DNA from: Pseudonocardia sulfidoxydans NBRC 16205
GTDB lineage: Bacteria; Actinomycetota; Actinomycetes; Mycobacteriales; Pseudonocardiaceae
Assembly (NCBI RefSeq): GCF_007989085.1
Contig: NZ_BJVJ01000002.1
Location: 1-64,000 of the forward strand
Direction: 5' to 3'
DNA: 64,000 nt
In this document: one piece after another, positions 2,353-54,070 of the stretch
How positions within the stretch are numbered: the first letter of the stretch is position 1
How the letters are laid out: every line of letters starts with the position of its first letter
The notes under the pieces: model-generated
The model's database searches: none
What the model saw: only the letters and a program-made list of their open reading frames with translations
Told to the model about the DNA's origin: nothing
Program-made: the position numbers and the translations under genes

Positions 2353-3747
2353 GTGGACGGCACGGTGACGCTCATCGTCGTACTGGTGATCGTGGTGCTG
2401 GTGGCGGTGACGCTGATCAGGGCTGTCCAGATCATCCCGCAGGCCACGGCCGCGGTGATCGAGCGGCTGGGCCGCTACAAGGCGACGCAGCCGCCGGGGC
2501 TGACGTTCCTGGTGCCGTTCGTCGACCGCATCCGGGAGCGGATCGACCTGCGCGAGCAGGTGGTGTCGTTCCCGCCGCAGCCGGTGATCACGCAGGACAA
2601 CCTGACCGTCAACATCGACACGGTCGTGTACTTCCAGGTCACCGACCCGCGGTCGGCGGTCTACGAGATCTCCGACTACATCGTCGGCGTGGAGCAGATC
2701 ACGACGACGACGCTGCGCAACGTGGTGGGCGGCATGACGTTGGAGGAGACGCTGACCTCCCGCGACCAGATCAACACCCAGCTGCGTGGCGAGCTCGACG
2801 AGGCGACCGGTCGGTGGGGCATCCGGGTGGCCCGGGTGGAGATCAAGGCCATCGACCCGCCGCCGTCGATCCAGGAGTCGATGGAGCGCCAGATGAAGGC
2901 CGACCGCGAGAAGCGGGCCATGATCCTCACCGCGGAGGGTGAGCGGGAGTCGGCGATCCGTAGCGCGGAGGGTCAGAAGCAGTCGCAGATCCTCACCGCG
3001 GAGGGCGCGAAGCAGGCGGCGATCCTCAACGCGGAGGCCGACCGGCAGTCGCGCATCCTGCGCGCGCAGGGTGACCGCGCGGCCCGTTACCTGCAGGCAC
3101 AGGGCCAGGCGAAGGCCATCGAGAAGGTGTTCGCGGCGATCAAGGCGGGCAAGCCGACGCCGGAGCTGTTGGCCTACCAGTACCTGCAGACGTTGCCGCA
3201 GATGGCGCAGGGTGATGCCAACAAGGTGTGGCTGGTGCCGTCCGACTTCGGCAAGGCGCTGGAGGGCTTCACCCGGATGCTGGGCGCCCCCGGCGACGAC
3301 GGGGTGTTCCGCTACGAGCCCAGCCCCGACGACGGTGCGGGACAGTCGGTCCGGCCCGAGGACGACGACCCGGGCCTCGAGGGCTGGTTCGACACCCGCA
3401 CCAACCCGGAGATCGCCGCGGTCGTGGCCAACGCCGAGGCGCAGGCGCGCCAGGAGGTCCCGCCGCTGGGTGCGGAGCTTCCCGCCATCCCGGGTGCTCC
3501 GGGCGGCGTCGGCCACCAGCAGGGGCAGCACCAGCGGCAGACGCCGCCGTCGCCGGCGCCGCGGCGCGAGGCACCGAGTCCTGAGGCACCGCGGGAGATC
3601 GAGCAGGGCGACTGGGACGACCAGGGCCAGAGCTCGGTGCCGACGCCGCCGCGCGGCACCCCGGCCCAGGGCGGTGAGCAGCCGGGTCGTGACGACGAGG
3701 GCGGCAGCGGCCTGCCCGGCTACCCAGCACCCCCGCCTGCCCGCTGA
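2353..3747 (+). CDS. SPFH/band 7 (stomatin-like) membrane protein
   Basis: A 464-residue protein with one N-terminal membrane segment (residues 5-25), a band-7/SPFH domain (about 28-190, including TQDNLTVNIDTVVYFQVTD), and a long helical region (about 190-265) built of near 11-residue repeats such as ILTAEGERESA and ILTAEGAKQAA that is typical of stomatin/QmcA oligomerisation. The last 160 residues are proline/glutamine-rich and probably disordered, which is longer than the family core. The GTG start is supported by a GGAGG box about 8 nt upstream. It follows the NfeD gene by about 60 bp; membrane scaffold or quality-control function is inferred from the family. Confidence 0.9.
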   Translation: MDGTVTLIVVLVIVVLVAVTLIRAVQIIPQATAAVIERLGRYKATQPPGLTFLVPFVDRIRERIDLREQVVSFPPQPVITQDNLTVNIDTVVYFQVTDPRSAVYEISDYIVGVEQITTTTLRNVVGGMTLEETLTSRDQINTQLRGELDEATGRWGIRVARVEIKAIDPPPSIQESMERQMKADREKRAMILTAEGERESAIRSAEGQKQSQILTAEGAKQAAILNAEADRQSRILRAQGDRAARYLQAQGQAKAIEKVFAAIKAGKPTPELLAYQYLQTLPQMAQGDANKVWLVPSDFGKALEGFTRMLGAPGDDGVFRYEPSPDDGAGQSVRPEDDDPGLEGWFDTRTNPEIAAVVANAEAQARQEVPPLGAELPAIPGAPGGVGHQQGQHQRQTPPSPAPRREAPSPEAPREIEQGDWDDQGQSSVPTPPRGTPAQGGEQPGRDDEGGSGLPGYPAPPPAR

Positions 3748-3776
3748 CCCGACACCACTCCGCCGAGTTCGTGGGG

Positions 3777-4556
3777 TCAGGCGAGGGTGAATCCGAACGG
3801 TAGCTCGAGGCGGTGCGCGCGCAGCATCTCGGTGTCGGCCAGCAGTTCCCGGGTCGGCCCGTCGGCCACGACCCGGCCCCCGTCGACGACGACGCTGCGC
3901 GGGCACAGCTGCAGGGCGTAGGGCAGGTCGTGGGTGACCATCAGCAGCGTGCGGTCGAGCCCGAGGAGCACCTCGGCGAGTTCGCGGCGGGCGACGGGGT
4001 CGAGGTTGGACGACGGCTCGTCGAGCACCAGGATCTCGGGGTCGCACGACAGGACGGTCGCGAGGGCGACCCGGCGGCGCTGCCCACCGGACAGGTGCAG
4101 GGGTGAGCGGTCGGCGTGCTCGGCCATCCCGACGGCGTCGAGCGCACCGGTGACGCGGGCGGTGAGCTCGTCGCCACGGACCCCGAAGTTGGCGGGCCCG
4201 AACGCGACGTCCTCGCGGACCGTCGGCATGAACAGCTGGTCGTCGGGGTCCTGGAAGACGATCCCGACGCGGCGCCGCACTTCCTGCAGGTGCGGTTTGG
4301 CCACGGGCAGCCCGCCGACGGCCACCGAACCCTCGGTGGGGGCGAGGATCCCGTTGAGCTGCAGGACCAGCGTCGTCTTCCCGGCGCCGTTGGGGCCCAG
4401 CAGGGCGACGCGCTCGCCGGGCTCGATGCGCAGGTCGACCCCGTGCAGGGCCGGGGTGCCGTCGGGGTAGGCGAAGTCGAGGCCACGGACGTCCAGCGAC
4501 GGCGTTTCGTCGCCGGCTCCTGTGAGCGACGAAGTGGGCTCGGTGTCGGCACTCAC
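3777..4556 (-). CDS. cbiO: Energy-coupling factor ABC transporter ATPase CbiO
   Basis: A 259-residue ATPase that powers cobalt (or nickel) uptake together with CbiQ and CbiM. It has Walker A GPNGAGKT at residues 54-61, a Q-loop in VFQDPDDQLFMPTVREDVAF (typical ECF ATPase wording), the signature LSGGQRRR, Walker B ILVLDEPSSNLDP, and the switch His in LMVTHDLPYA. The GTG start at 4556 overlaps the cbiQ stop by 4 bp (GTGA), so translation is coupled. It is the last gene of a four-gene minus-strand operon and is convergent with the SPFH gene. Confidence 0.94.
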   Translation of the reverse strand: MSADTEPTSSLTGAGDETPSLDVRGLDFAYPDGTPALHGVDLRIEPGERVALLGPNGAGKTTLVLQLNGILAPTEGSVAVGGLPVAKPHLQEVRRRVGIVFQDPDDQLFMPTVREDVAFGPANFGVRGDELTARVTGALDAVGMAEHADRSPLHLSGGQRRRVALATVLSCDPEILVLDEPSSNLDPVARRELAEVLLGLDRTLLMVTHDLPYALQLCPRSVVVDGGRVVADGPTRELLADTEMLRAHRLELPFGFTLA

Positions 4557-5317
4557 GTCGTCATCATTCCTGCCACGGCGAGGGCGGCGGCGACCGCGGG
4601 CACGGCCAGCGCCGCGATCCACTGGGCGCGTGCGGCGGCCGGGGCGCCGGTCGTCGGCATGGTCCCGGTCCAGCCGCGGGAGAGCATCGCGAGGTGGACG
4701 CGTTCGCCGCGTTCGTAGGAGCGGACGAACAGGCTGCCGATGCCCCGCGCGGTCGCCCCGGCCTGCCACAGGAACCGGGGGTCGTGGCCGCGGGCGATGC
4801 GCGCCAACCGCATCCGCCGCGCCTCGCCCGCGATGACGTCGGCGTAGCGCAGCATCAGCGTCGCGATGGTGAGGACGAGCGCGGGGGCGCGCAGCCGCTG
4901 CAGGCCGAGCAGCAGGTCCCGCATCGGGGTGGTGGCGGCGAGGGTGAGCGAGGTGAGCACGCCGAGGGTGCCTTTGGCGAGGATGTTCCACGCCCCGAGG
5001 ACACCGGTGTGCGACAGCGACATGCCGGCCCAGTCGAAGCGCGGGTCGGGCCCGGTGAACGGCAGCAGGATCGCCAGGACGACGAACGGTGCCTCGATGA
5101 GGGCGCGCCGCGCCATCCAGCCCGGCGGGATGCGGGCGGCGACCCAGACCGCGGCGAGCAGCAGCAGGTAGCCGCCGAAGGCCCAGAACGCCTCGCGGGG
5201 TGTCGCGACGACGCAGAGCACGGTGAGGAACGCTGCGACGATCTTGACCTCGGCCGGGAGCCGGTGGACCACCGACACGCCCGGCAGGTACAGCGGGTGC
5301 GAGTGCCCGGCGCCCAT
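4553..5317 (-). CDS. cbiQ: ECF transporter transmembrane subunit CbiQ
   Basis: A 254-residue membrane protein with five or six predicted hydrophobic segments (the first near residues 26-55) and the two cytoplasmic Ala-Arg-Gly-type coupling helices of the T-component, seen as RIARGHDPRF and MLSRGW. In ECF systems these helices seat in the grooves of the CbiO dimer. The ATG start shares one base with the stop of the upstream PDGLE gene (TGATG), and its own stop overlaps cbiO, so it belongs to one translationally coupled operon. Substrate is cobalt or nickel by analogy with CbiMNQO/NikMNQO; the sequence does not decide which. Confidence 0.93.
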   Translation of the reverse strand: MGAGHSHPLYLPGVSVVHRLPAEVKIVAAFLTVLCVVATPREAFWAFGGYLLLLAAVWVAARIPPGWMARRALIEAPFVVLAILLPFTGPDPRFDWAGMSLSHTGVLGAWNILAKGTLGVLTSLTLAATTPMRDLLLGLQRLRAPALVLTIATLMLRYADVIAGEARRMRLARIARGHDPRFLWQAGATARGIGSLFVRSYERGERVHLAMLSRGWTGTMPTTGAPAAARAQWIAALAVPAVAAALAVAGMMTT

Positions 5318-5691
5318 CAGTCGTCGTCGGATGGCGCGGGTTCCGGCTTGGTCCGGCCGCGCAGCAGCCAGAACAGCCCGCCCGCGACGAGCACCGTGAC
5401 GATCACGCCGAGGATGCCCGCGATGCCGACGGAGTGCTCGGCCCCGCCGACGGAGTAGTCGGCCAGCGGACCGGACGCCGTCGCGTGGTCGGTGGCGTTC
5501 TGCGCGATGCAGGTGCCGTCGAGTTGCTCCCCGTCGGATGTCTCGGTGACCTCGCAGCCGTGCAGGGTGACCGAGTCGAGGCCGTCGGGGGAGGAGCTGG
5601 CGAGGTAGGAGACCCCGCCGGCGACGAGGAGGGCGACGAGCAGGAACCCGAGCAGGAACCGGGAGCGGCGGCGGGTGTCGGGCGCGGTCAT
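5317..5691 (-). CDS. PDGLE-domain (CbiN/NikN-like) accessory membrane protein
   Basis: A 124-residue protein with an N-terminal membrane segment (about 12-33), the diagnostic PDGL motif directly after it (SSSPDGLDSV), an extracytoplasmic loop with two cysteines that could form a disulfide, and a second membrane segment (about 90-112). PDGLE proteins are the small accessory subunits of metal ECF transporters and are needed for full metal uptake in characterised relatives. Its start overlaps the cbiM stop by 4 bp (ATGA) and its stop abuts the cbiQ start, which fixes its place in the operon. Confidence 0.9.
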   Translation of the reverse strand: MTAPDTRRRSRFLLGFLLVALLVAGGVSYLASSSPDGLDSVTLHGCEVTETSDGEQLDGTCIAQNATDHATASGPLADYSVGGAEHSVGIAGILGVIVTVLVAGGLFWLLRGRTKPEPAPSDDD

Positions 5692-6404
5692 GCGGAGCTC
5701 CCCTCGCCGCGGACGGCGGTGGCAGGCGCGTCGCGGGGTGCGGTGCGCAGCAGGTGGACGAGGTCGGGGCGGACGGCGGCGACGGCGCCGACGGTGGCGG
5801 CGGTGATGACGCCCTCGCCGATGCCGATGAGGGCGTGGAAGCCGACCATCAGCGCGAACACGGTGCCGGTGGTGGCGCCGGCCGCGCCGCCGATCGCGTA
5901 TTGGAGGACGAATCCGAGGGAGGCGACGACGGTGTTGACGAACGCGGCGACGAACGCGGTGGCGAGCAGCCTGCCGCGGCTGCGCCGGGCGAGGCCGCGC
6001 AGGGCGCGGGCGACGCCCCACCCGACGAACACCCCGATGATCGCCATGTTGAACACGTTGGTGCCCAGCGCGGTGAGGCCGCCGTCGGCGAACAGCAGGG
6101 CCTGCACGACGAGGACGATCGTGATGCACAGGGTGCCGACCCACGGGCCGACGAGGATCGCGACGAGCGCGCCGCCGAGCAGGTGGCCGCTGGCGCCGGG
6201 CAGGATCGGGAAGTTGATCATCTGGACGGCGAAGACGAACGCCGTGACGAGGCCGGCCATGGGGGCGGTGCGGTCGTCGAGGTCGGCGCGGGCGCGCACG
6301 GCCGCGTAGCCGACGATCACGATGGAGATCACGCCGAAGATCAGCGACGTCGGCGCGTTCACGATGCCGTCGCTCATGTGCATCGCGACGTCTGTGGTGG
6401 TCAC
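5688..6404 (-). CDS. cbiM: Cobalt/nickel ECF transporter substrate-binding subunit CbiM
   Basis: A 238-residue, six- or seven-segment membrane protein. The conserved MHMSDGIVNAP stretch near the N terminus and later HLLGGALVAILVGPW match CbiM/NikM, where an N-terminal Met-His plus an internal His bind the metal. The GTG at 6404 has a GAGGAG box at good spacing, but it places the Met-His at residues 8-9 rather than 1-2. Either the start is the ATG at 6383 or the first residues are trimmed. It is the first gene of the cbiM-PDGLE-cbiQ-cbiO operon. The 258-bp divergent spacer to the acyl-CoA dehydrogenase gene shows no clear riboswitch. Confidence 0.92.
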   Translation of the reverse strand: MTTTDVAMHMSDGIVNAPTSLIFGVISIVIVGYAAVRARADLDDRTAPMAGLVTAFVFAVQMINFPILPGASGHLLGGALVAILVGPWVGTLCITIVLVVQALLFADGGLTALGTNVFNMAIIGVFVGWGVARALRGLARRSRGRLLATAFVAAFVNTVVASLGFVLQYAIGGAAGATTGTVFALMVGFHALIGIGEGVITAATVGAVAAVRPDLVHLLRTAPRDAPATAVRGEGSSA

Positions 6405-6662
6405 CTGCGCTCCTCACCGGTCCCGCGGCACGGGTCCTTCGCGGCCGTCAGCACAACACACCCGGTGGCCTTCCTGCCAGTCATGTGCGAGAACACTCGA
6501 TCTGCGGTTGCGTGGAAGTGGCGGCGGGGCGGCGTGACCTGCGGTGATGGCGGTCGGCAGCCGGGGGCGGGCGGTTCCGGTCACGACGGTCGGGTGGCCC
6601 ACCAACCGGAGGGGCGGCGCACGTCACATGCCGATCCGGGCGGGGTCGTCCACGATGGGGCG

Positions 6663-7841
6663 GTGACGCAGACCCTGTCGCGGCTGCCGGCACTGACGCC
6701 GCCCGCCGCCGAGCTCCCCGCGAGGGCCGAGGCGCTGCGCGCCGAGGTCCGGGAGTTCCTCTCCGACGAACGCGCCGCCGGCGCCTGGACACCCCGATCC
6801 GACGTGTGGTTGTCGGGTTGGGACGAGGACTTCACCCGCCGCCTCGCCGCCCGCGGCTGGCTGGGCATGACGATCCCGACGGAGTACGGCGGGCACGGTG
6901 CCTCCCCGCTCGACCGCTACGTCGTCACCGAGGAGCTGCTCGCGGCGGGCGCACCCGTTGCGGCGCACTGGGTCGCCGACCGCCAGATCGGGCCGTCCCT
7001 GCTGCGCCACGGCACCGAGGCGCAGCGGCGGAAGTACCTGCCGGGCATCGCCGCGGGCGAGGTGTACTTCGGCATCGGCATGTCCGAGCCCGACTCGGGC
7101 TCCGACCTCGCGTCGGTGCGCAGCCGGGCGACGAAGGTCGACGGCGGCTGGTCGCTGTCGGGCACGAAGGTGTGGACGTCGGGCGGGCACCACGCGCACG
7201 CGTTCTTCGCCCTGGTCCGCACCTCGCCGCCGGAGGAGGGCAAGCGGCACTCCGGGCTGTCGCAGCTGATCGTCGACCTGCGCGCGGACGGTGTCACGAT
7301 CCGCCCCATCCCGCTGCTCACGGGCGCGCACCACTTCAACGAGGTCGTGTTCGACGACGCGTTCGTGCCCGACGACATGGTCCTCGGCGAGGTCGGCTCC
7401 GGCTGGGGGCAGGTCACCGGGGAGCTGGCGTTCGAACGGTCGGGCCCCGAGCGGTTCCTGTCGACGTTCCCGCTGCTGGCCGCGCTCGTCGGGGAGCTCT
7501 CGGGTGCCGACCTCGGGCCGGCGGGGCGCCGGGAGCTGGGCTCGCTGGTCGCGCGGCTGTGGGCGTTGCGGCGGATGTCGCTGGCGGTGGCCGGGTCGTT
7601 GGCGTCGGGACAGGCGCCGGAGCTGGCGGCGGCCGTCGTGAAGGACCTGGGCACCCGCTTCGAGAACGAGATCATCGACGCCGCCCGGTTGCTGGTGTCG
7701 GTGCCGCCCGACCCGGGAGCCGAGGGCGGCTACGCCCGCCTGCTCGCCGACGCCGTGCTGCACGCCCCCGGCTTCACGCTGCGCGGGGGGACCAACGAGG
7801 TGCTGCGCGGCATCGTCGCGCGCGGACTGGGGCTCCGATGA
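6663..7841 (+). CDS. Acyl-CoA dehydrogenase, first subunit
   Basis: A 392-residue acyl-CoA dehydrogenase (FAD-dependent alpha,beta-desaturation of an acyl-CoA). The family pattern is clear: ARGWLGMTIPTEYGGHG near residue 60, GMSEPDSGSDLASVRSRA for flavin and substrate contacts near 140, TKVWTSGG, and the C-terminal GGTNEVLRGIVARGLGLR that closes the FAD site. I chose the GTG at 6663 because the preceding in-frame DNA does not read as protein. Its stop overlaps the next gene by 4 bp (ATGA). The pair resembles FadE pairs that form alpha2beta2 enzymes for branched or ring-containing acyl-CoAs; the substrate is unknown. Confidence 0.92.
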   Translation: MTQTLSRLPALTPPAAELPARAEALRAEVREFLSDERAAGAWTPRSDVWLSGWDEDFTRRLAARGWLGMTIPTEYGGHGASPLDRYVVTEELLAAGAPVAAHWVADRQIGPSLLRHGTEAQRRKYLPGIAAGEVYFGIGMSEPDSGSDLASVRSRATKVDGGWSLSGTKVWTSGGHHAHAFFALVRTSPPEEGKRHSGLSQLIVDLRADGVTIRPIPLLTGAHHFNEVVFDDAFVPDDMVLGEVGSGWGQVTGELAFERSGPERFLSTFPLLAALVGELSGADLGPAGRRELGSLVARLWALRRMSLAVAGSLASGQAPELAAAVVKDLGTRFENEIIDAARLLVSVPPDPGAEGGYARLLADAVLHAPGFTLRGGTNEVLRGIVARGLGLR

Positions 7842-8836
7842 CCGTTCCTGTTGTCGATCCGGACCTCGTCGAGCTGGCCGCGTCGGTGTTCGCCGACGCC
7901 ACCGACGACAACCTCTGGGACACCCTCGAGCAGACCGGGCTCGCCCGCCTCGCCGTGGCCGAGGACGCGGGCGGCAGCGGCGGGTCGCTGCTCGACCTGG
8001 CCGCGGTCCTCGTCGAGGCCGGTGCGGCCGCCGCGTGGGCACCGCTGGCGGAGACCGACCTCGCGTGCAGGCTCGCCGCAACAGCCGGCCTCGAGGTCCC
8101 GGCGGGGCCGCTGACGTTCGCGCTCGACGCGCCGTTGAGCGTCGACAGGGACACGGTGTCCGGGACGCTCGCCCGCGTCCCGTGGGGTCGTTCCGCCGCC
8201 GCGGTCGTCGCGCTCGGCGGCGGTTCGGTCGTGGTGCTCGACCCGGCGACGGCGACGGTCGTCGAGGGCACCAACGTCGCCGAGGAGCCACGCGACACGC
8301 TGACCTGGTCTTCGGCCGCGGCCACCGTCGCGGCGGCGCCCGACGGCGCGGCCGCCGAGTTCGCCCTCCGGGCGGCGCTGTCGCGGTCGCTGCTGCTGGC
8401 CGGCGCGGCCCGCGGCGCCTTGACCAGGGCCGTCGGCTACGCGGGGGAGCGGGAGCAGTTCGGCCGCCCCATCGGCCGGTTCCAGGCGATCCAGCAGCAG
8501 CTCGCCCTCGCCGCGGCCGAGGTCGCCGCGGGTGGGGCGGCGGCGGAGTCGGCAGCGCGGGTGGTCGTCCGCGATGGCATCACCGCGCCGACGGCCGAGC
8601 TGGCCGTCGCCGCGGCGAAGGTCCGCACCGGCCAGGCGGCCACCGAAGTCGCCCGCGTCGCTCATCAGGTCCACGGCGCCATCGGGTTCACCCGCGAGCA
8701 CGACCTGCGCCTCACGACGACGCGCCTCTGGGCGTGGCGCGACGAGGACGGCACCGACGGCGACTGGGCACAGCGCATCGGCGACCTCACCCTCGCCGCG
8801 GGCGCCGACGGCCTCTGGCCCCTGGTGACCGCCTGA
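7838..8836 (+). CDS. Acyl-CoA dehydrogenase, second subunit
   Basis: A 332-residue protein with a degenerate N-terminal half and a well-conserved C-terminal helical domain of the acyl-CoA dehydrogenase fold (GYAGEREQFGRPIGRFQAIQ near residue 205, HQVHGAIGFTREHDL near 280). It is shorter than a full ACAD and lacks the clear central flavin-contact motifs seen in its neighbour, typical of the partner subunit in heteromeric enzymes. ATGA overlap with the upstream gene shows translational coupling. Its stop codon lies at the edge of a long palindrome. Confidence 0.9.
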   Translation: MTVPVVDPDLVELAASVFADATDDNLWDTLEQTGLARLAVAEDAGGSGGSLLDLAAVLVEAGAAAAWAPLAETDLACRLAATAGLEVPAGPLTFALDAPLSVDRDTVSGTLARVPWGRSAAAVVALGGGSVVVLDPATATVVEGTNVAEEPRDTLTWSSAAATVAAAPDGAAAEFALRAALSRSLLLAGAARGALTRAVGYAGEREQFGRPIGRFQAIQQQLALAAAEVAAGGAAAESAARVVVRDGITAPTAELAVAAAKVRTGQAATEVARVAHQVHGAIGFTREHDLRLTTTRLWAWRDEDGTDGDWAQRIGDLTLAAGADGLWPLVTA

Positions 8837-8889
8837 CCGGTCGTGAGTGGCGGTATTGGCCATGGCCAATACCGCCACTCACGACCGGT
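8836..8889. repeat. Palindromic repeat P1, copy 1 (27-bp arms)
   Basis: A perfect 54-bp palindrome centred between 8862 and 8863. Its inner 40 bp (8843-8882) correspond to the P1 family, starting GTGAGTGGC and ending GCCACTCAC. The central sequence differs from other copies (GGTATTGGCC instead of GATAGTCGC), yet both arms differ in a matching way. It sits between convergent genes and overlaps the last base of the upstream stop codon, so it may act as a bidirectional terminator. Confidence 0.9.
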
Positions 8890-8890
8890 G

Positions 8891-9364
8891 TCAGCGCTGC
8901 CGGTCGGTCGGGAGCTTCCGGAAGTCCCAGCTCGTGATCTTCTCCGGGCGCAGCCGCAGCCAGGCGTGGCGGCCGTCGTGGTGGACCTTCCCGCCGTGGT
9001 AGCGGTCGGCCATGAGCTGCTCGGGGCCGTCGAGCTCCGGGCAGGGCTCGCCGGTCCGCGGGACCTCGCCGACGACCTCCACCCGGCCGCGGAGCTCCAC
9101 GCCGCGCAGCTCGTTGTAGTCGTGGCCCGCGTCGATCACGGCCGCGATCCGCGGGTCGGCCGTCAGGTCGGCCCAGCGCTGGCTGCGCGACAACGACGTC
9201 AGCCACAGCGCCCCGCCGTGCCAGGCGTACCAGAGCGGGGTGGCGTGGGGGCCGTTCGTGCCGTTGGTGGCGACACGGCAGGTGCGCTCCTGCGCGAGGA
9301 ACGCGTCGATCTCGTCGGGGGTCATGGCGATGGCGCGGGCACGGCGTTGCGGCTTCACGATCAC
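8891..9364 (-). CDS. PPOX-class flavin/F420-dependent oxidoreductase
   Basis: A 157-residue split beta-barrel protein of the pyridoxamine-phosphate-oxidase-like class. Typical elements are the N-terminal helix DEIDAFLAQERTCRVATNG, then HATPLWYAWHGGALWLTSLS, a basic QRWADLTADPRIAAVIDAG segment for cofactor phosphate, and a C-terminal WLRLRPEKITSWDFRKL. Such proteins bind FMN or F420 and often reduce or oxidise small molecules; the cofactor here cannot be decided. The start is uncertain: the GTG at 9364, a GTG two codons later, or the Met at residue 14. It is divergent from the decarboxylase gene with only 24 bp between starts. Confidence 0.85.
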   Translation of the reverse strand: MIVKPQRRARAIAMTPDEIDAFLAQERTCRVATNGTNGPHATPLWYAWHGGALWLTSLSRSQRWADLTADPRIAAVIDAGHDYNELRGVELRGRVEVVGEVPRTGEPCPELDGPEQLMADRYHGGKVHHDGRHAWLRLRPEKITSWDFRKLPTDRQR

Positions 9365-9388: not shown

Positions 9389-10510
9389 GTGCAGTCAGCG
9401 CTCGAGGCTTTCCTCTCCGACCGGAACCGTCCGACGCCGTTCCTCGTGCTCGACCCGGCCGTCGTGGCGCGCCGGTACGCCGAGCTGACACAGGCGTTCC
9501 CGGGCGCGGAGATCCTGTACGCGGTCAAGGCGTGCCCGCACCCCGCCGTGCTGCGGGTCCTCGTCGACGCCGGCGCAGGGTTCGACGCTGCGAGCCCCGC
9601 GGAGGTCGCGTCGTGCGTCGAGGCGGGCGCCGATCCCGCCCGGATCTGCGCGGGCAACCCTGTCCGCGGTGCCGCCGCGACGGCTGCCTGCCACGCCGCC
9701 GGGGTGCGACGGTTCGTCACCGACAGCGTCGAGGACCTCGACGAGCTCGCCGTCCACGCGCCGGGCGCGGAGGTCCTGGTCCGGGTGCTGGTCGACGACA
9801 CCGGGTCGGCGACACCGTTCTTCGGCAAGTTCGGCGCCACCCCCGCGGTGGCGACGGAGCTGTTGCGCGGCTGCGGCTCCCGGGGCCTCGTCGCGACGGG
9901 GGTGACGTTCCACGCCGGGTCGCAGCAGACCCGTCCCGCGACCTACTCCGCCGGTGCGGCCACCGCGGTGGCCGTCGCGACGGAGGCCGGCGTGCAGCGT
10001 CCGGTGCTCGACATCGGTGGGGGGCTGCCCGTGGCCTACCGGTCGGCCGTTCCCGCGTGGGCCGAGTTCGCCGCCGCGGTCGCCGGACATGACGTGCGGC
10101 TCGTCGTCGAACCCGGCCGCGCTCTCGTCGCCGAGGCCGGGGTGCTGCGCACGAGCGTGCTGCGGGTGTCGCGACGCCCGGGCGTCGACCACCGGCGCTG
10201 GGTGTACCTCGACGCCGGCCGCTACCAGGGTCTCGCCGAGACCGAGAACGAGGCGATCGACTACCCGGTGCGGGTCGCGGGCCGCGACGGGCCCACCGGG
10301 CCGGTCGTCATCGCGGGCCCGACCTGCGACGGTGACGACGTCCTCTACCGGCGCACCCCGTACGCGCTGCCGCTGTCGTTGCGGGCGGGCGATCACGTCG
10401 ACCTTCTGCACGCCGGCGCCTACACGGCCTCGTACGCGTCGGTGGGGTTCAACGGGTTCGCGCCGCTGCCGGTCCACGTGGCGCCGCAGCCGAGCTCCCG
10501 CGCAACCTGA
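9389..10510 (+). CDS. Type III PLP-dependent ornithine/lysine-type decarboxylase
   Basis: A 373-residue alanine-racemase-fold decarboxylase that would make a diamine from ornithine or lysine (or a related amino acid). Lys47 in YAVKACPHP is the PLP lysine. The motifs HAGSQ, DIGGGLP and EPGR bind PLP, and Cys313-Asp in GPTCDGDDVL matches the catalytic pair of eukaryotic-type ornithine decarboxylases. The C terminus carries the YTASYASVGFNGFAPLP block. The next gene is a fused AdoMet decarboxylase-spermidine synthase, which supports a polyamine role. A TAGACG box precedes the GTG start by 12 nt. Substrate specificity is not readable from sequence. Confidence 0.88.
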   Translation: MQSALEAFLSDRNRPTPFLVLDPAVVARRYAELTQAFPGAEILYAVKACPHPAVLRVLVDAGAGFDAASPAEVASCVEAGADPARICAGNPVRGAAATAACHAAGVRRFVTDSVEDLDELAVHAPGAEVLVRVLVDDTGSATPFFGKFGATPAVATELLRGCGSRGLVATGVTFHAGSQQTRPATYSAGAATAVAVATEAGVQRPVLDIGGGLPVAYRSAVPAWAEFAAAVAGHDVRLVVEPGRALVAEAGVLRTSVLRVSRRPGVDHRRWVYLDAGRYQGLAETENEAIDYPVRVAGRDGPTGPVVIAGPTCDGDDVLYRRTPYALPLSLRAGDHVDLLHAGAYTASYASVGFNGFAPLPVHVAPQPSSRAT

Positions 10511-10631: not shown

Positions 10632-11816
10632 GTGACCCAGCCGCCCGCGCCCGTCGGCCGCCACGTCCTCGCCGACCTCGAGGACGTCGACGCCGCCGTC
10701 CTCGACGACGTCGCGGGGCTCCGGGCCGCCCTCGCCGACGCGCTCACCGGCGCCGGGGCCACCGTTCGGCAGCTGGTCGCGGAGGCGTTCGAGCCGCACG
10801 GGGTCACCGTCGTCGCGCTGCTGGCGGAGTCGCACGCGTCGGTGCACACCTGGCCCGAGCACGGCCGGGCCCTCGTCGACGTGTTCACCTGCGGCGACGC
10901 GGCCGACCCCCACCGGGCGGTGGCGCTGCTCGCGGGCGCGCTCGGCGCGACACTGCGCGAGGTCCGGACCGAACCACGCGGCGGGGAACCGGGCCGCGTC
11001 GTCGAGCCGATCTCCCCCGGCCTCACCAGGACCTGGGCGCTCGGGCGAATCCACCACCGCGAGTCGACGGAGTTCCAGGACATCCTGATCGCCGACACCG
11101 CGCACGGCGTCACCCTGTTCTGCGACGACGAGCGGCAGAGCGCCGAGTCGACGCAGCTGATCTACCACGAGGCGCTGTTCGTCCCGGCCGCGTTGTCGGC
11201 GCGCCGCCGGGAGCGGGTGCTCGTGGTGGGTTCGAGCGAGGGCGTCGTCAGCGAGCTCGCGGTCGCGTGCGGCGCGACGCTCGTCGACCACGTCGACGTC
11301 GACGACGCCGCGGTGCGGGCGTGCGCGGCGCACCTGCCCTACGGCTACACCCCCGAGACCCTGGCGGCGGCCGAACGCGGCGACGGGCCGGTGCGGGTGC
11401 ACTACGCCGACGGCCTGAGATGGGTCCGCGGTGACGGCCCGCGCTACGACGTGATCGTCGTCGACCTCCCCGACGAGCGTCCCGACGACGCCGAGAACCA
11501 GCTCAACCGGCTGTACACGCACCGTTTCCTGGCCGACTGCCGCGCCCGGCTCACCGACGGCGGGGTCGTCGTGTCGCAGGCCGGCAGCGCCGCGGCGTGG
11601 CGGGACGCGACGCTGCGCGCGGCGTGGGACCGGTTCCACGACGTGTTCGCCCAGGTCCGCTACGTCGGTAGCGACGAGCACGAGTGGTCGTTCCTGATCG
11701 GCGGGGAGGATCTGGCCGATCTCGATCTCGCGGTGCTGCCGTACGCGCCGGTGAGCATCGACGCCGACTTCCTGCGCGCCCGCACGGTCGCGCCTGCCAC
11801 GCTGCGGAACCGCTGA
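10632..11816 (+). CDS. Fused S-adenosylmethionine decarboxylase and spermidine synthase
   Basis: A 394-residue two-domain protein. Residues about 10-125 are a prokaryotic pyruvoyl AdoMet decarboxylase: E66|S67 in AESHASVHTWPEHG is the self-cleavage site and pyruvoyl precursor, His72 and Cys87 (DVFTCG) keep the spacing of the catalytic residues in SpeH. Residues about 135-375 are a spermidine-synthase-like Rossmann methyltransferase fold (LIYHEALFVPAAL, RVLVVGSSEGVVSELA, DVIVVDLPDE). The nucleotide loop is GSSEG instead of the usual GGGDG, so the transferase half is divergent. With the upstream decarboxylase it can form a complete diamine-to-triamine pathway, with both aminopropyl donor synthesis and transfer in one chain. 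Confidence 0.87.
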   Translation: MTQPPAPVGRHVLADLEDVDAAVLDDVAGLRAALADALTGAGATVRQLVAEAFEPHGVTVVALLAESHASVHTWPEHGRALVDVFTCGDAADPHRAVALLAGALGATLREVRTEPRGGEPGRVVEPISPGLTRTWALGRIHHRESTEFQDILIADTAHGVTLFCDDERQSAESTQLIYHEALFVPAALSARRRERVLVVGSSEGVVSELAVACGATLVDHVDVDDAAVRACAAHLPYGYTPETLAAAERGDGPVRVHYADGLRWVRGDGPRYDVIVVDLPDERPDDAENQLNRLYTHRFLADCRARLTDGGVVVSQAGSAAAWRDATLRAAWDRFHDVFAQVRYVGSDEHEWSFLIGGEDLADLDLAVLPYAPVSIDADFLRARTVAPATLRNR

Positions 11817-12846: not shown

Positions 12847-14448
12847 TCACTTCTCCGCGTAGGACGTCACGACGCGCCCCGGGACGGGGATCCGGACCGG
12901 GGTGTCGCCGAAGAGCCGCCGGGTCGCGGTGTCGGCGGCGTCCTGCACCAGCCGCGCGGCCTCGGCAGCGCCCTCGGCCGGGCCGTGCAGCAGTACCTCG
13001 TCGTGCTGGAAGAACACCAGCCGGGCCGGGTCGCCCGCGGCGTGCAGCGCCGCCCGCAGCTCCGCGAGCAGCACCAACGCCCACTCCGCGGCGGTGGCCT
13101 GCACGACGAAGTTGCGGGTGAACCGGCCGCGGGCCCGGGCGCGGGACGGTTGTTCGTCGCCGGGCTGCGCCGGCGGCGAGGTGCGGCCGAGCCAGGAGCG
13201 GACGATGCGGCCGTCCTCCCCGGCCCGCGCGGCGGCCTCGACGACCTCGACCGCGGCGGGGAACCGGCGGCGCAGCAGCGCCAGGTGTCTGCCGGCGTCG
13301 CCGGACGTCTGACCGTAGATCGCCGACAGCACCGCGAGCTTCGCCTTGGCCCGCCCGTCGGTGGCGGCCGCGCCGAACAGCTCGTGCGCGAGTCCGGCGT
13401 AGAGGTCGGAGTCGCGTTCGCGGCCGCCGGCGCGGGCCAGCGCGTCGTCGCCGGCCATCGCGGCGAGGATGCGCGGTTCGAGCTGGGCGGCGTCGGCGAC
13501 GACGAGCCGGTTGCCGGGGTCGGCCCGCACCGCGGCGCGCACGGCCTTCGGGATCTGCAGCGCCCCACCGCCGCGGGTCGCCCAGCGCCCGGACACCACC
13601 CCACCGACGACGTACTCGGGCCGGAACCGGCCGTCGCGCACCCAGGTGGACAGCCACGCCCAGCCGTGCGCGGTGTGCAGCCGGGCCAGCTCCTTGTAGG
13701 CGAGCAGCGGCGCGACCGCGGGATGGTCGACGCGCTCGATCACCCAGGAACGGGTGCTCGGCAGCTCGATCCCGACCCGGGCGAAGGCGCGCAGCACCTC
13801 GGCGGGGGAGTCTGGGTTGACGGCGCGGCCGAAGGCGGCGTCGATCTCGTCGGCGAGCGCCGCGAGGCGGGCCGGGCGGGCGTACCCGCCCGGCCGCGGG
13901 CCCAGCGCGTCGGTGAGCAGCGCGTCGTGCACGGCGGCGTCCCAGGGCAGTCCGTCGGCGCGCATCTCCTCGGCGACGATCCCGCCCGCCGACTCCGCCG
14001 TGGCCAGCAGCGACAGCCGGGGATCGGCTGCCAGTGACCGGTGTTGTGCCGCATGGACCGCGACCAGCGCGGCGAGGGTCTCCGGACCCGCGGGGGCGGC
14101 GCTGCGGAACAGTCCGGGCGGCTCGTCGTCGGCCTCCGGTGGCGGGTCGGGCAGCTCGGGGAGCCCGGCCAGCCGCGCCCTCGCCGCGGCGAGGCCGTGC
14201 GGGGCGCCGAACCGGCCCGCGGCCGCCACCAGCAGCCGCTCGACCAGCTCGACGTCGTGGGCGCGCGCGACCCGGACCCCGGCGGCGAGCAACGCGCGGT
14301 AGGTCCGGGGGTTGCGCCACACCCAGCGCGGCGCGTCGCGGTCGAGTGCGGACAGCTCCGCCGGGCCGACCGTCGCGACGGGCCCGAGCGGTGCGTCGGT
14401 CCCGTCGAGCCGCTGGATCAGCAGCGGACCGTCGGGGTCGGCGTGCAC
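12847..14448 (-). CDS. Bifunctional 3'-5' exonuclease/DNA polymerase-type protein (family A)
   Basis: A 533-residue DNA polymerase I-like protein without the 5' nuclease domain. Motif A is VVADAAQLEPRIL (Asp319 and Glu324 match the catalytic Asp and steric-gate Glu, but DAAQ replaces DYSQ). Motif B is RAKAKLAVLSAIYGQTSG (Arg, Lys and Tyr-Gly retained, Phe replaced) and motif C is FFQHDEVLLHG (HDE retained). The first 200 residues occupy the place of the exonuclease domain but show no clear DEDD motif. It resembles the second, shorter PolA-like protein of actinobacteria, thought to act in repair. Start choice (GTG) is moderately sure. Confidence 0.88.
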   Translation of the reverse strand: MHADPDGPLLIQRLDGTDAPLGPVATVGPAELSALDRDAPRWVWRNPRTYRALLAAGVRVARAHDVELVERLLVAAAGRFGAPHGLAAARARLAGLPELPDPPPEADDEPPGLFRSAAPAGPETLAALVAVHAAQHRSLAADPRLSLLATAESAGGIVAEEMRADGLPWDAAVHDALLTDALGPRPGGYARPARLAALADEIDAAFGRAVNPDSPAEVLRAFARVGIELPSTRSWVIERVDHPAVAPLLAYKELARLHTAHGWAWLSTWVRDGRFRPEYVVGGVVSGRWATRGGGALQIPKAVRAAVRADPGNRLVVADAAQLEPRILAAMAGDDALARAGGRERDSDLYAGLAHELFGAAATDGRAKAKLAVLSAIYGQTSGDAGRHLALLRRRFPAAVEVVEAAARAGEDGRIVRSWLGRTSPPAQPGDEQPSRARARGRFTRNFVVQATAAEWALVLLAELRAALHAAGDPARLVFFQHDEVLLHGPAEGAAEAARLVQDAADTATRRLFGDTPVRIPVPGRVVTSYAEK

Positions 14449-14512: not shown

Positions 14513-14552
14513 GTGAGTGGCGATAGTCGCTATAGCGACTATCGCCACTCAC
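14513..14552. repeat. Palindromic repeat P1, copy 2
   Basis: A perfect 40-bp palindrome with centre CTATAG (14530-14535). It is the form closest to the family consensus: GTGAGTGGCGATAGTCGC in the left arm and its exact complement on the right. It covers the stop codon of the downstream-reading minus-strand flavoprotein gene (14549-14551) and lies upstream of the polymerase gene on the same strand. Confidence 0.9.
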
Positions 14553-20938: not shown

Positions 20939-20978
20939 GTGAGTGGCGATGGTCGCCATGGCGACCATCGCCACTCAC
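20939..20978. repeat. Palindromic repeat P1, copy 3
   Basis: A perfect 40-bp palindrome centred at GCCATGGC. Compared with copy 2 it reads GATGGTCGCC in the left arm with the matching change in the right arm. It lies in the 66-bp gap between the convergent M56 and DinB genes. Confidence 0.9.
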
Positions 20979-54030: not shown

Positions 54031-54070
54031 GTGAGTGGCGATAGTCGCTATAGCGACGATCGCCACTCAC
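54031..54070. repeat. Palindromic repeat P1, copy 5, with adjacent half copy
   Basis: A 40-bp palindrome with a single A-G mismatch (54043 against 54058), otherwise identical to copy 2. Directly upstream, 54003-54030 holds a second, truncated left end (TGAACCCTGTGTGTGGCGAT) duplicating the sequence that leads into the full copy. It lies between two convergent VOC genes. Confidence 0.88.

Follow-up and report, generated by a model that had tools for sequence, protein, structure and literature searches.

A predicted two-gene polyamine pathway in Pseudonocardia: an ornithine decarboxylase beside an in-frame fusion of AdoMet decarboxylase and aminopropyltransferase

Which reactions are encoded by two neighbouring genes of the soil bacterium Pseudonocardia sulfidoxydans NBRC 16205, one of which combines an AdoMet decarboxylase (AdoMetDC) with an aminopropyltransferase (APT), and how new is such an arrangement? 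We have addressed this question in a window of 64,000 nucleotides, the whole stretch of DNA that was analysed (contig NZ_BJVJ01000002.1, positions 1 to 64,000), with the relevant features collected in Table 1; papers cited by PMC number are drawn on in excerpt. Our main reading, to which we assign a probability of roughly 0.87, is that the two-gene unit turns ornithine into spermidine or a closely related polyamine via an ornithine decarboxylase (ODC) and the AdoMetDC-APT fusion. The two genes would be co-transcribed, and the upstream PLP enzyme would make putrescine from L-ornithine and perhaps also cadaverine from L-lysine. The fusion would cleave itself before Ser67, which would become a pyruvoyl group, the pyruvoyl domain would decarboxylate AdoMet to dcAdoMet, and the C-terminal domain would move the aminopropyl group from dcAdoMet onto the diamine as presumed acceptor, the predicted products being methylthioadenosine and spermidine or a near relative among the tri- and tetraamines. 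The observations on which we build are domain identity, conservation of catalytic and ligand-site residues, the predicted fold, and the conserved gene pairing; an altered GSSEG loop and APT scores far below the speE equivalog cut-offs count against the pathway.

Table 1. Features of the locus and of related loci, with positions in the window where given
Feature	Position	Strand	Details
Odc2-type L-ornithine(/L-lysine) decarboxylase (ODC), PLP-dependent, alanine-racemase fold	9389..10510	+	373 aa, PF02784 + PF00278
AdoMetDC-APT fusion gene	10632..11816	+	394 aa, GTG start 10632, stop 11816
Domain 1, class 1b AdoMet decarboxylase, residues 1-122	10632..10997	+	PF02675; TIGR03330; T. maritima 1vr7 fold
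Domain 2, aminopropyltransferase, residues about 119-394	10986..11813	+	PF01564; P. horikoshii spermidine synthase fold
Ser67 codon, predicted self-cleavage site and pyruvoyl precursor by homology	10830..10832	+	T. maritima AdoMetDC alignment
Tyr178-His179-Glu180, His as in plant thermospermine synthase	11163..11171	+	alignment to MtTSPS 6bq2
GSSEG loop (residues 200-204), altered dcAdoMet-binding loop, elsewhere GGG(D/E)G	11229..11243	+	clade alignment
Asp278...Asp281 (DLPD), catalytic aspartates by homology	11463..11474	+	alignment to D-L-A-D of MtTSPS
Genus g8 ODC-APT fusion loci	L221-L227, L241-L245, L253-L264		about 640 aa or more

Both domains of the fusion sit in one uninterrupted frame, as judged from the open reading frame and from Pfam, in which AdoMet_dc (PF02675) matches residues 11-117 with 113.1 bits (cut-off 25) and Spermine_synth (PF01564) residues 176-340 with 41.7 bits (cut-off 22.9). 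Taken together, the profiles place the AdoMetDC at about residues 8-117 and the spermine/spermidine synthase at about 138-344, and NCBIfam TIGR03330 scores 112.5 bits, above its cut-off of 75.65. An AlphaFold2 model computed from 34 input sequences reached a mean pLDDT of 92.0 and a pTM of 0.82; its first Foldseek match was human spermine synthase (3c6k), aligned across the two domains at an overall rmsd of about 15 Å, suggesting a different placement of the domains. The profiles and the model matches bear out the initial annotation, which had proposed an AdoMetDC fused to a spermidine-synthase fold, and at the level of sequence the in-frame union of the two domains can be regarded as confirmed.

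Residues 5-121 superimpose on the T. maritima AdoMetDC (1vr7) with a VIA-align Z of 20.1 and 1.8 Å over 117 residues, and in the alignment Ser67, His72 and Cys87 pair with T. maritima Ser63, His68 and Cys83, so that the complete catalytic triad claimed at the outset stands. The motif ESHxSxHx(W/Y)P...C is complete in 73 of the 74 distinct AdoMetDC stretches of the clade, the exception (L181) being a frameshifted copy whose matched stretch stops short of the Cys. According to the excerpted text of PMC10407285, a Pro distinguishes AdoMetDC from the SpeD-derived arginine decarboxylase; we read Pro75, present in the window fusion within HTWP, as this discriminating residue. By its triad, Pro75, and a profile score above the curated cut-off, domain 1 is thus predicted to be a class 1b AdoMetDC.

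The decarboxylase gene lies on the same strand, 121 bases in front of the fusion. Among PDB entries, its product most resembles lysine/ornithine decarboxylases. With S. meliloti Odc2, for which the annotated sequence of strain Ak57 was used, it shares 40.5% identity, the specificity-helix stretch GLAETxxEAI, the PLP lysine (Lys47), and Cys313-Asp314. At the position that we take to be Asp332 of eukaryotic ODC, the window protein has Ala and its relatives Val, Cys, or Ile; the idea that it is no ODC on this account was discarded, as S. meliloti Odc2 has Ile there together with the same helix. S. meliloti Odc2 is a reported ODC/LDC, and a review, as excerpted, puts its ornithine activity ten-fold above that on lysine (PMC10385936). 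We therefore assign the gene, on homology, as an Odc2-type ornithine(/lysine) decarboxylase, and its two Pfam domains and Odc2 likeness agree with the earlier claim of a diamine-forming type III decarboxylase next door. A PF02675 profile search found one AdoMetDC in the window's genome, and a protein search one additional partial match of 20 bits that contains a stop. The same genome has two PF02784 proteins, this ODC and another that we infer to be LysA-like, and no match to the agmatinase/arginase family (PF00491); putrescine for the APT therefore most plausibly comes from the adjacent gene. The compact polyamine pathway that had been proposed is likewise supported.

The C-terminal domain (residues 119-394) superimposes on P. 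horikoshii spermidine synthase with a Z of 34.1 and 1.9 Å over 267 residues. The match to M. truncatula thermospermine synthase (MtTSPS) is nearly as good, with a Z of 32.7, and speE-type models match below their cut-offs (TIGR00417 and NF002010, 75.3 vs 249.55 and 101.1 vs 260 bits). In the alignment to MtTSPS (6bq2), His179, Glu203, Asp222, and Leu279 correspond to His85, Glu109, Asp129, and Leu179, and Tyr178, Asp260, Asp278, and Asp281 are also kept; the dcAdoMet- and substrate-site residues are those named in the excerpts of PMC6514230 and PMC11107197. Hence the polar residues for the aminopropyl, ribose, and adenine parts of dcAdoMet and the catalytic Asp are present (H179, E203, D222, D260, D278, D281), and together with L279 they occur in 32 of 32 Pseudonocardia rows of the clade alignment. 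Across the clade, residues 178-180 read YHE and position 278 is Asp in all 103 aligned rows, and Asp281 is found in 102 of them, the paralogue L232 having Gly. The predicted site carries a thermospermine-synthase-type His/Glu/Asp signature, which can occur in spermidine synthases too (PMC11107197, in excerpt). The three substitutions that gave a spermidine synthase N-methyltransferase activity, Asp103Ile, Gln79Thr, and Val106Thr in the excerpt of PMC3725402, are not present in the fusion, which has Glu203, His179, and Val206 at those positions. We thus read domain 2 as a probable aminopropyltransferase, not a METHYLTRANSFERASE; a plain methyltransferase appears unlikely because the polar dcAdoMet-site residues are retained. 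Of the two outcomes named at the start as overturning the annotation, a lack of pyruvoyl formation and a plain methyltransferase, neither is indicated at the level of sequence.

The exception is the glycine loop. Canonical spermidine, spermine, and thermospermine synthases show hhhhGGG(D/E)G(G/A) in the alignment excerpted from PMC11107197, and the window protein has GSSEG instead. Throughout the Mycobacteriales clade GS(S/G)EG takes the place of GGG(D/E)G, with Ser201 in each of the 103 aligned rows (98 distinct sequences) and position 202 being Ser in Pseudonocardiaceae and Gly in genera g20 and g8; outside the clade GGG(D/E)G is found in 44 of 45 tblastn rows (39 distinct places), the remaining one, L160, reading GAGDG. 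The clade count leaves out L179 and the divergent paralogue L236, each with a stop in the matched stretch (in L236 the match reaches its own stop), and the broken, unlabelled copies L176, L181, and L265.

Within Pseudonocardia, a one-frame match over about residues 8-392 occurs by our count in 30 of 59 other genomes, so that an intact full-length fusion is present in 31 of 60 with the window's own included; the recurrence in 30 other genomes rules out a chance or assembly effect. An AdoMetDC was found in 36 of 62 genomes of the genus, and its lack in the other 26 indicates that the pathway is dispensable. In all 29 fusion-bearing loci that were selected as best matches (L003-L031), the ODC precedes the fusion on the same strand; the contig of L018 has only the 3′ part of the ODC gene. 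The neighbouring PPOX, GDSL, and polA-like genes are common, wholly or partly, to the nearest relatives (L032-L035) and some others, and are not shared by L036, L038, L182, or the g20 stretch L174, which marks the two-gene unit as the conserved core. Pseudonocardia dioxanivorans CB1190 (L034) is among the strains that carry the pair. One locus (G034, L010/L036) had looked like a triple ODC-AdoMetDC-APT fusion of 818 aa, an idea dropped once a stop codon was found at the end of the ODC. No plasmid or phage record in two collections covered 80% of the fusion at E <= 1e-5.

Broken, cut, or rearranged copies of the fusion were seen in five Pseudonocardia genomes. In G046 (L176, about 3346-7656) the gene is split near residues 175-176 by about 4.3 kb containing ORFs that we take to be transposase-like, homology in G028 (L180) ends after residue 171, near the G046 break point, and in G051 (L181) the AdoMetDC part is scattered over three frames. 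In G022 (L177) an APT-only gene comes directly after the ODC, and no AdoMetDC is detectable. Its sister G029 (L178) also has an APT-only gene, together with a broken ODC and, close by on the opposite strand, a free AdoMetDC of divergent sequence.

Elsewhere in the window, positions 12847-14448 encode a PRK14975-type 3′-5′ exonuclease/DNA polymerase homologue (651.8 bits, cut-off 389). Four 36-base palindromes (8845-8880, 14515-14550, 20941-20976, and 54033-54068) have the common arms GAGTGGCG...CGCCACTC and differing centres, three being perfect and that at 54033-54068 having one mismatched pair; the one at 8845-8880 lies between an ORF ending at 8836 and the ORF 8891-9364.

The wider distribution bears on how unusual the locus is. 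AdoMetDC was found in 37 of 396 Actinomycetota genomes, the window's own included, and 90 of 397 genomes of an order-wide sample match the fusion query at E <= 1e-20. By our count, 73 of the 79 family genomes listed match at this threshold and 6 do not, 287 additional non-matching genomes of the order-wide sample ranking after nearer kin and thus outside this count; since the sample holds only three Pseudonocardia genomes, all gene-bearing, presence may be overstated relative to the 36 of 62 of the fuller search. The initial annotation had spoken of an organism group not noted for spermidine, which holds in so far as AdoMetDC is uncommon in Actinomycetota, and fails as a mark of novelty given how many of the listed family genomes match and that such fusions are already published. 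In other Pseudonocardiaceae genera, 14 distinct stretches contain all three parts, and the ODC always comes first; 12 of them have AdoMetDC and APT as separate neighbouring genes and two (L229, L230) as a fusion. Two members of the family, G643 (L236) and G784 (L232), have second, divergent APT paralogues with no ODC or AdoMetDC in the fetched stretch, L236 showing FHE for YHE and GCSEG for GSSEG. In L179 (G082, family f11), a free AdoMetDC is followed by an APT with a stop codon at the Tyr178 position, which is either a pseudogene or a sequencing error.

Genus g20 matches the fusion query in 97 of 98 genomes at E <= 1e-3 (our count), of which 85 have a full-length one-frame fusion, 47-54% identical to that of the window, and 10 a free AdoMetDC without such a fusion; of the remaining two, G561 matches in two pieces and G521 weakly. 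The ODC is upstream in all 20 distinct g20 loci checked; at L175 (G079), a free AdoMetDC has no ODC or APT of the fusion kind beside it. Regular expressions had suggested that some g20 decarboxylases lack the PLP lysine (6 of 21) or the helix (3 of 21), an impression set aside after seven were aligned and both were present, the misses being Phe for Tyr and Met for Leu. Eight loci of other phyla (L039-L046), where tblastn alignments ran across both parts, were likewise rejected as fusions, all having stop codons between the domains; L047 has none there.

In a tree of the APT domain, a very long branch separates the clade from three outgroup APTs, and labels of taxon and architecture need 14 changes for 11 groups, vs 49.4 when shuffled. 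Fused forms lie scattered among separate ones, with one fused/separate sister pair at 99/92, so that fusion or fission occurred more than once, several basal forks being open. This agrees with the independent origins reportedly described by Green et al. 2011.

The most puzzling relatives come from genus g8. In all 24 loci read there (23 distinct), a single frame runs without a stop from the ODC into an APT that forms the C-terminal part of the protein. Among 297 sampled g8 genomes, 38 have a full-length ODC-APT and seven an AdoMetDC-APT, six of the latter with an ODC in front. A search of 55 g8 genomes for AdoMetDC covered the PF02675 family, absence meaning none above its cut-off. It was found in 7 of 7 genomes with AdoMetDC-APT, whereas 38 of 39 with full-length ODC-APT had none above the cut-off; the one exception, G1022, has a distant copy elsewhere (45 bits), and G1099 a match below the cut-off (15.7 bits). 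A looser AdoMetDC search gave none above the cut-off in seven ODC-APT genomes, with a 15-bit match in G743. PF02675 was likewise absent from the one genome with a broken ODC-APT and from all eight without any ODC-APT match; absence of AdoMetDC is therefore usual in g8, and the retention of the APT is the remarkable part. The ODC-APT form looks like an ODC plus AdoMetDC-APT minus the AdoMetDC segment, a single origin not being resolved by the tree.

These transferases show no sign of having changed. No position separates ODC-APT from AdoMetDC-bearing APTs at thresholds of at least 85% consensus in the 24 ODC-APT rows and at least 75% in the 76 AdoMetDC-bearing rows, save one gap column, and there the seven g8 AdoMetDC-APTs have a gap as well. 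Wherever at least 99% of the 100 other rows agree, which is the case at 71 positions, the G022 APT has the clade residue too. Rough dN/dS values, from a simple Nei-Gojobori calculation on GC-rich genes, have a low median of 0.18 for the ODC-APT transferase domains, on a par with 0.17 and 0.18 for AdoMetDC-bearing relatives in g8 and g20, and, less trustworthy owing to base composition, 0.36 for other Pseudonocardiaceae and 0.54 for Pseudonocardia. On these comparisons the APT seems to do the same thing with and without AdoMetDC. One mycobacterium, M. smegmatis, is reported to have no detectable polyamines (PMC8503589, in excerpt), and no description of an ODC-APT fusion was found by titles and abstract starts in one open-licence literature collection. 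One speculation, to which we give rather little credence, is that APTs of the clade with the GS(S/G)EG loop need no classical AdoMetDC, that ODC-APT is a self-contained ornithine-to-product enzyme using AdoMet or an unrecognised source of dcAdoMet, and that the AdoMetDC half of the window fusion is dispensable. Confirmation by assay would mean that an APT homologue uses a new donor, or that there is an AdoMet decarboxylase of a kind not yet known.

How far do these observations leave room for other readings of the window protein? Relatives that keep the same APT without detectable AdoMetDC fit badly with strict dependence on dcAdoMet. The C-terminal domain might use a donor other than dcAdoMet, for instance AdoMet in a methyl or aminocarboxypropyl transfer, the AdoMetDC domain being an optional extra; the contrast between the two g8 architectures in AdoMetDC content, the ODC and APT of G022 in a Pseudonocardia, and a dcAdoMet loop altered throughout the clade would agree with this. 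We nevertheless hold it to be improbable, as APTs with and without an AdoMetDC have identical polar residues for binding the aminopropyl amine, the positions substituted in N-methyltransferases (PMC3725402, in excerpt) are unaltered in that sense, and AdoMetDC stands in the same frame or operon in 76 of the 103 clade rows (25 have none, one has it elsewhere, and one is a paralogue). A milder departure is that domain 2 acts successively and makes mainly thermospermine, another tetraamine, or a nor-polyamine, not spermidine, which we consider possible, if clearly the weaker supposition. His179, Glu203, Asp222, and Leu279 match four features that, in the excerpts of PMC6514230 and PMC11107197, set MtTSPS apart from plant spermidine synthase, and the Pelagibacter fusions yield spermidine and spermine/thermospermine (PMC11107197); yet according to the same excerpt the loop motif does not set spermidine synthases apart from the others, and spermidine synthases give the best fold matches, with MtTSPS close behind. 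Moreover, a protein search found no second APT of the clade in the window's genome, so the window APT must make at least a triamine.

Two further readings concern the gene as a whole and its first half. Broken copies in G046, G051, and G028 might suggest that the fusion is a decayed gene without function, which is very improbable for the window copy, intact like those of 30 other genomes of the genus and with invariant catalytic residues. SpeD-derived decarboxylases exist, Actinomycetota included (PMC10407285, in excerpt), so that the pyruvoyl domain could in principle be a neofunctionalised SpeD acting on ornithine or arginine; with Pro75 present, a score above the AdoMetDC equivalog cut-off, an APT fused to it, an ODC already upstream, and no second PF02675 SpeD in the genome, we find this scarcely credible. 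The route from ornithine to spermidine or a close relative thus remains our preferred reading, and the initial annotation is partly supported: it appears right in mechanism, as far as can be told from sequence, and overstated in novelty.

What the locus adds is a well-conserved gene pair to the known class of fused polyamine enzymes, with genes that are usual in sampled Pseudonocardiaceae though uncommon across Actinomycetota, and a testable puzzle, an unchanged transferase joined to ODC and not to AdoMetDC where no AdoMetDC is found. A title search of one open-licence literature collection gave no paper on Pseudonocardia polyamines. Green et al. 2011 reportedly described AdoMetDC-APT fusions that are active and of independent origins, one of them actinobacterial, with Nocardia farcinica included; like these, the window fusion has AdoMetDC and then APT in one chain. 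The Pelagibacter fusions, in which both domains are reported to be active and which make spermidine and spermine/thermospermine (PMC11107197), resemble it by description in combining a class 1b AdoMetDC with an APT, although they belong to a different phylum. The excerpt of PMC12803844 reports AdoMetDC and spermine synthase activity for fusions of a delta-proteobacterium and a Krumholzibacterium, and proposes a bacterial AdoMetDC-SpmSyn fusion as the ancestor of animal spermine synthase. Human spermine synthase (3c6k) has the same two-domain order as the window fusion, but its animal N-domain has lost AdoMetDC function (PMC12803844), whereas the triad of the window protein is intact. In motifs 2 and 3 the window APT has Glu and Asp, respectively, where the bacterial spermine synthases in the excerpt of PMC11107197 have Asp and Glu. 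Since AdoMetDC-APT fusions with proven activities are already published, the window protein belongs to a known class, within which it falls in a distinct sequence clade.
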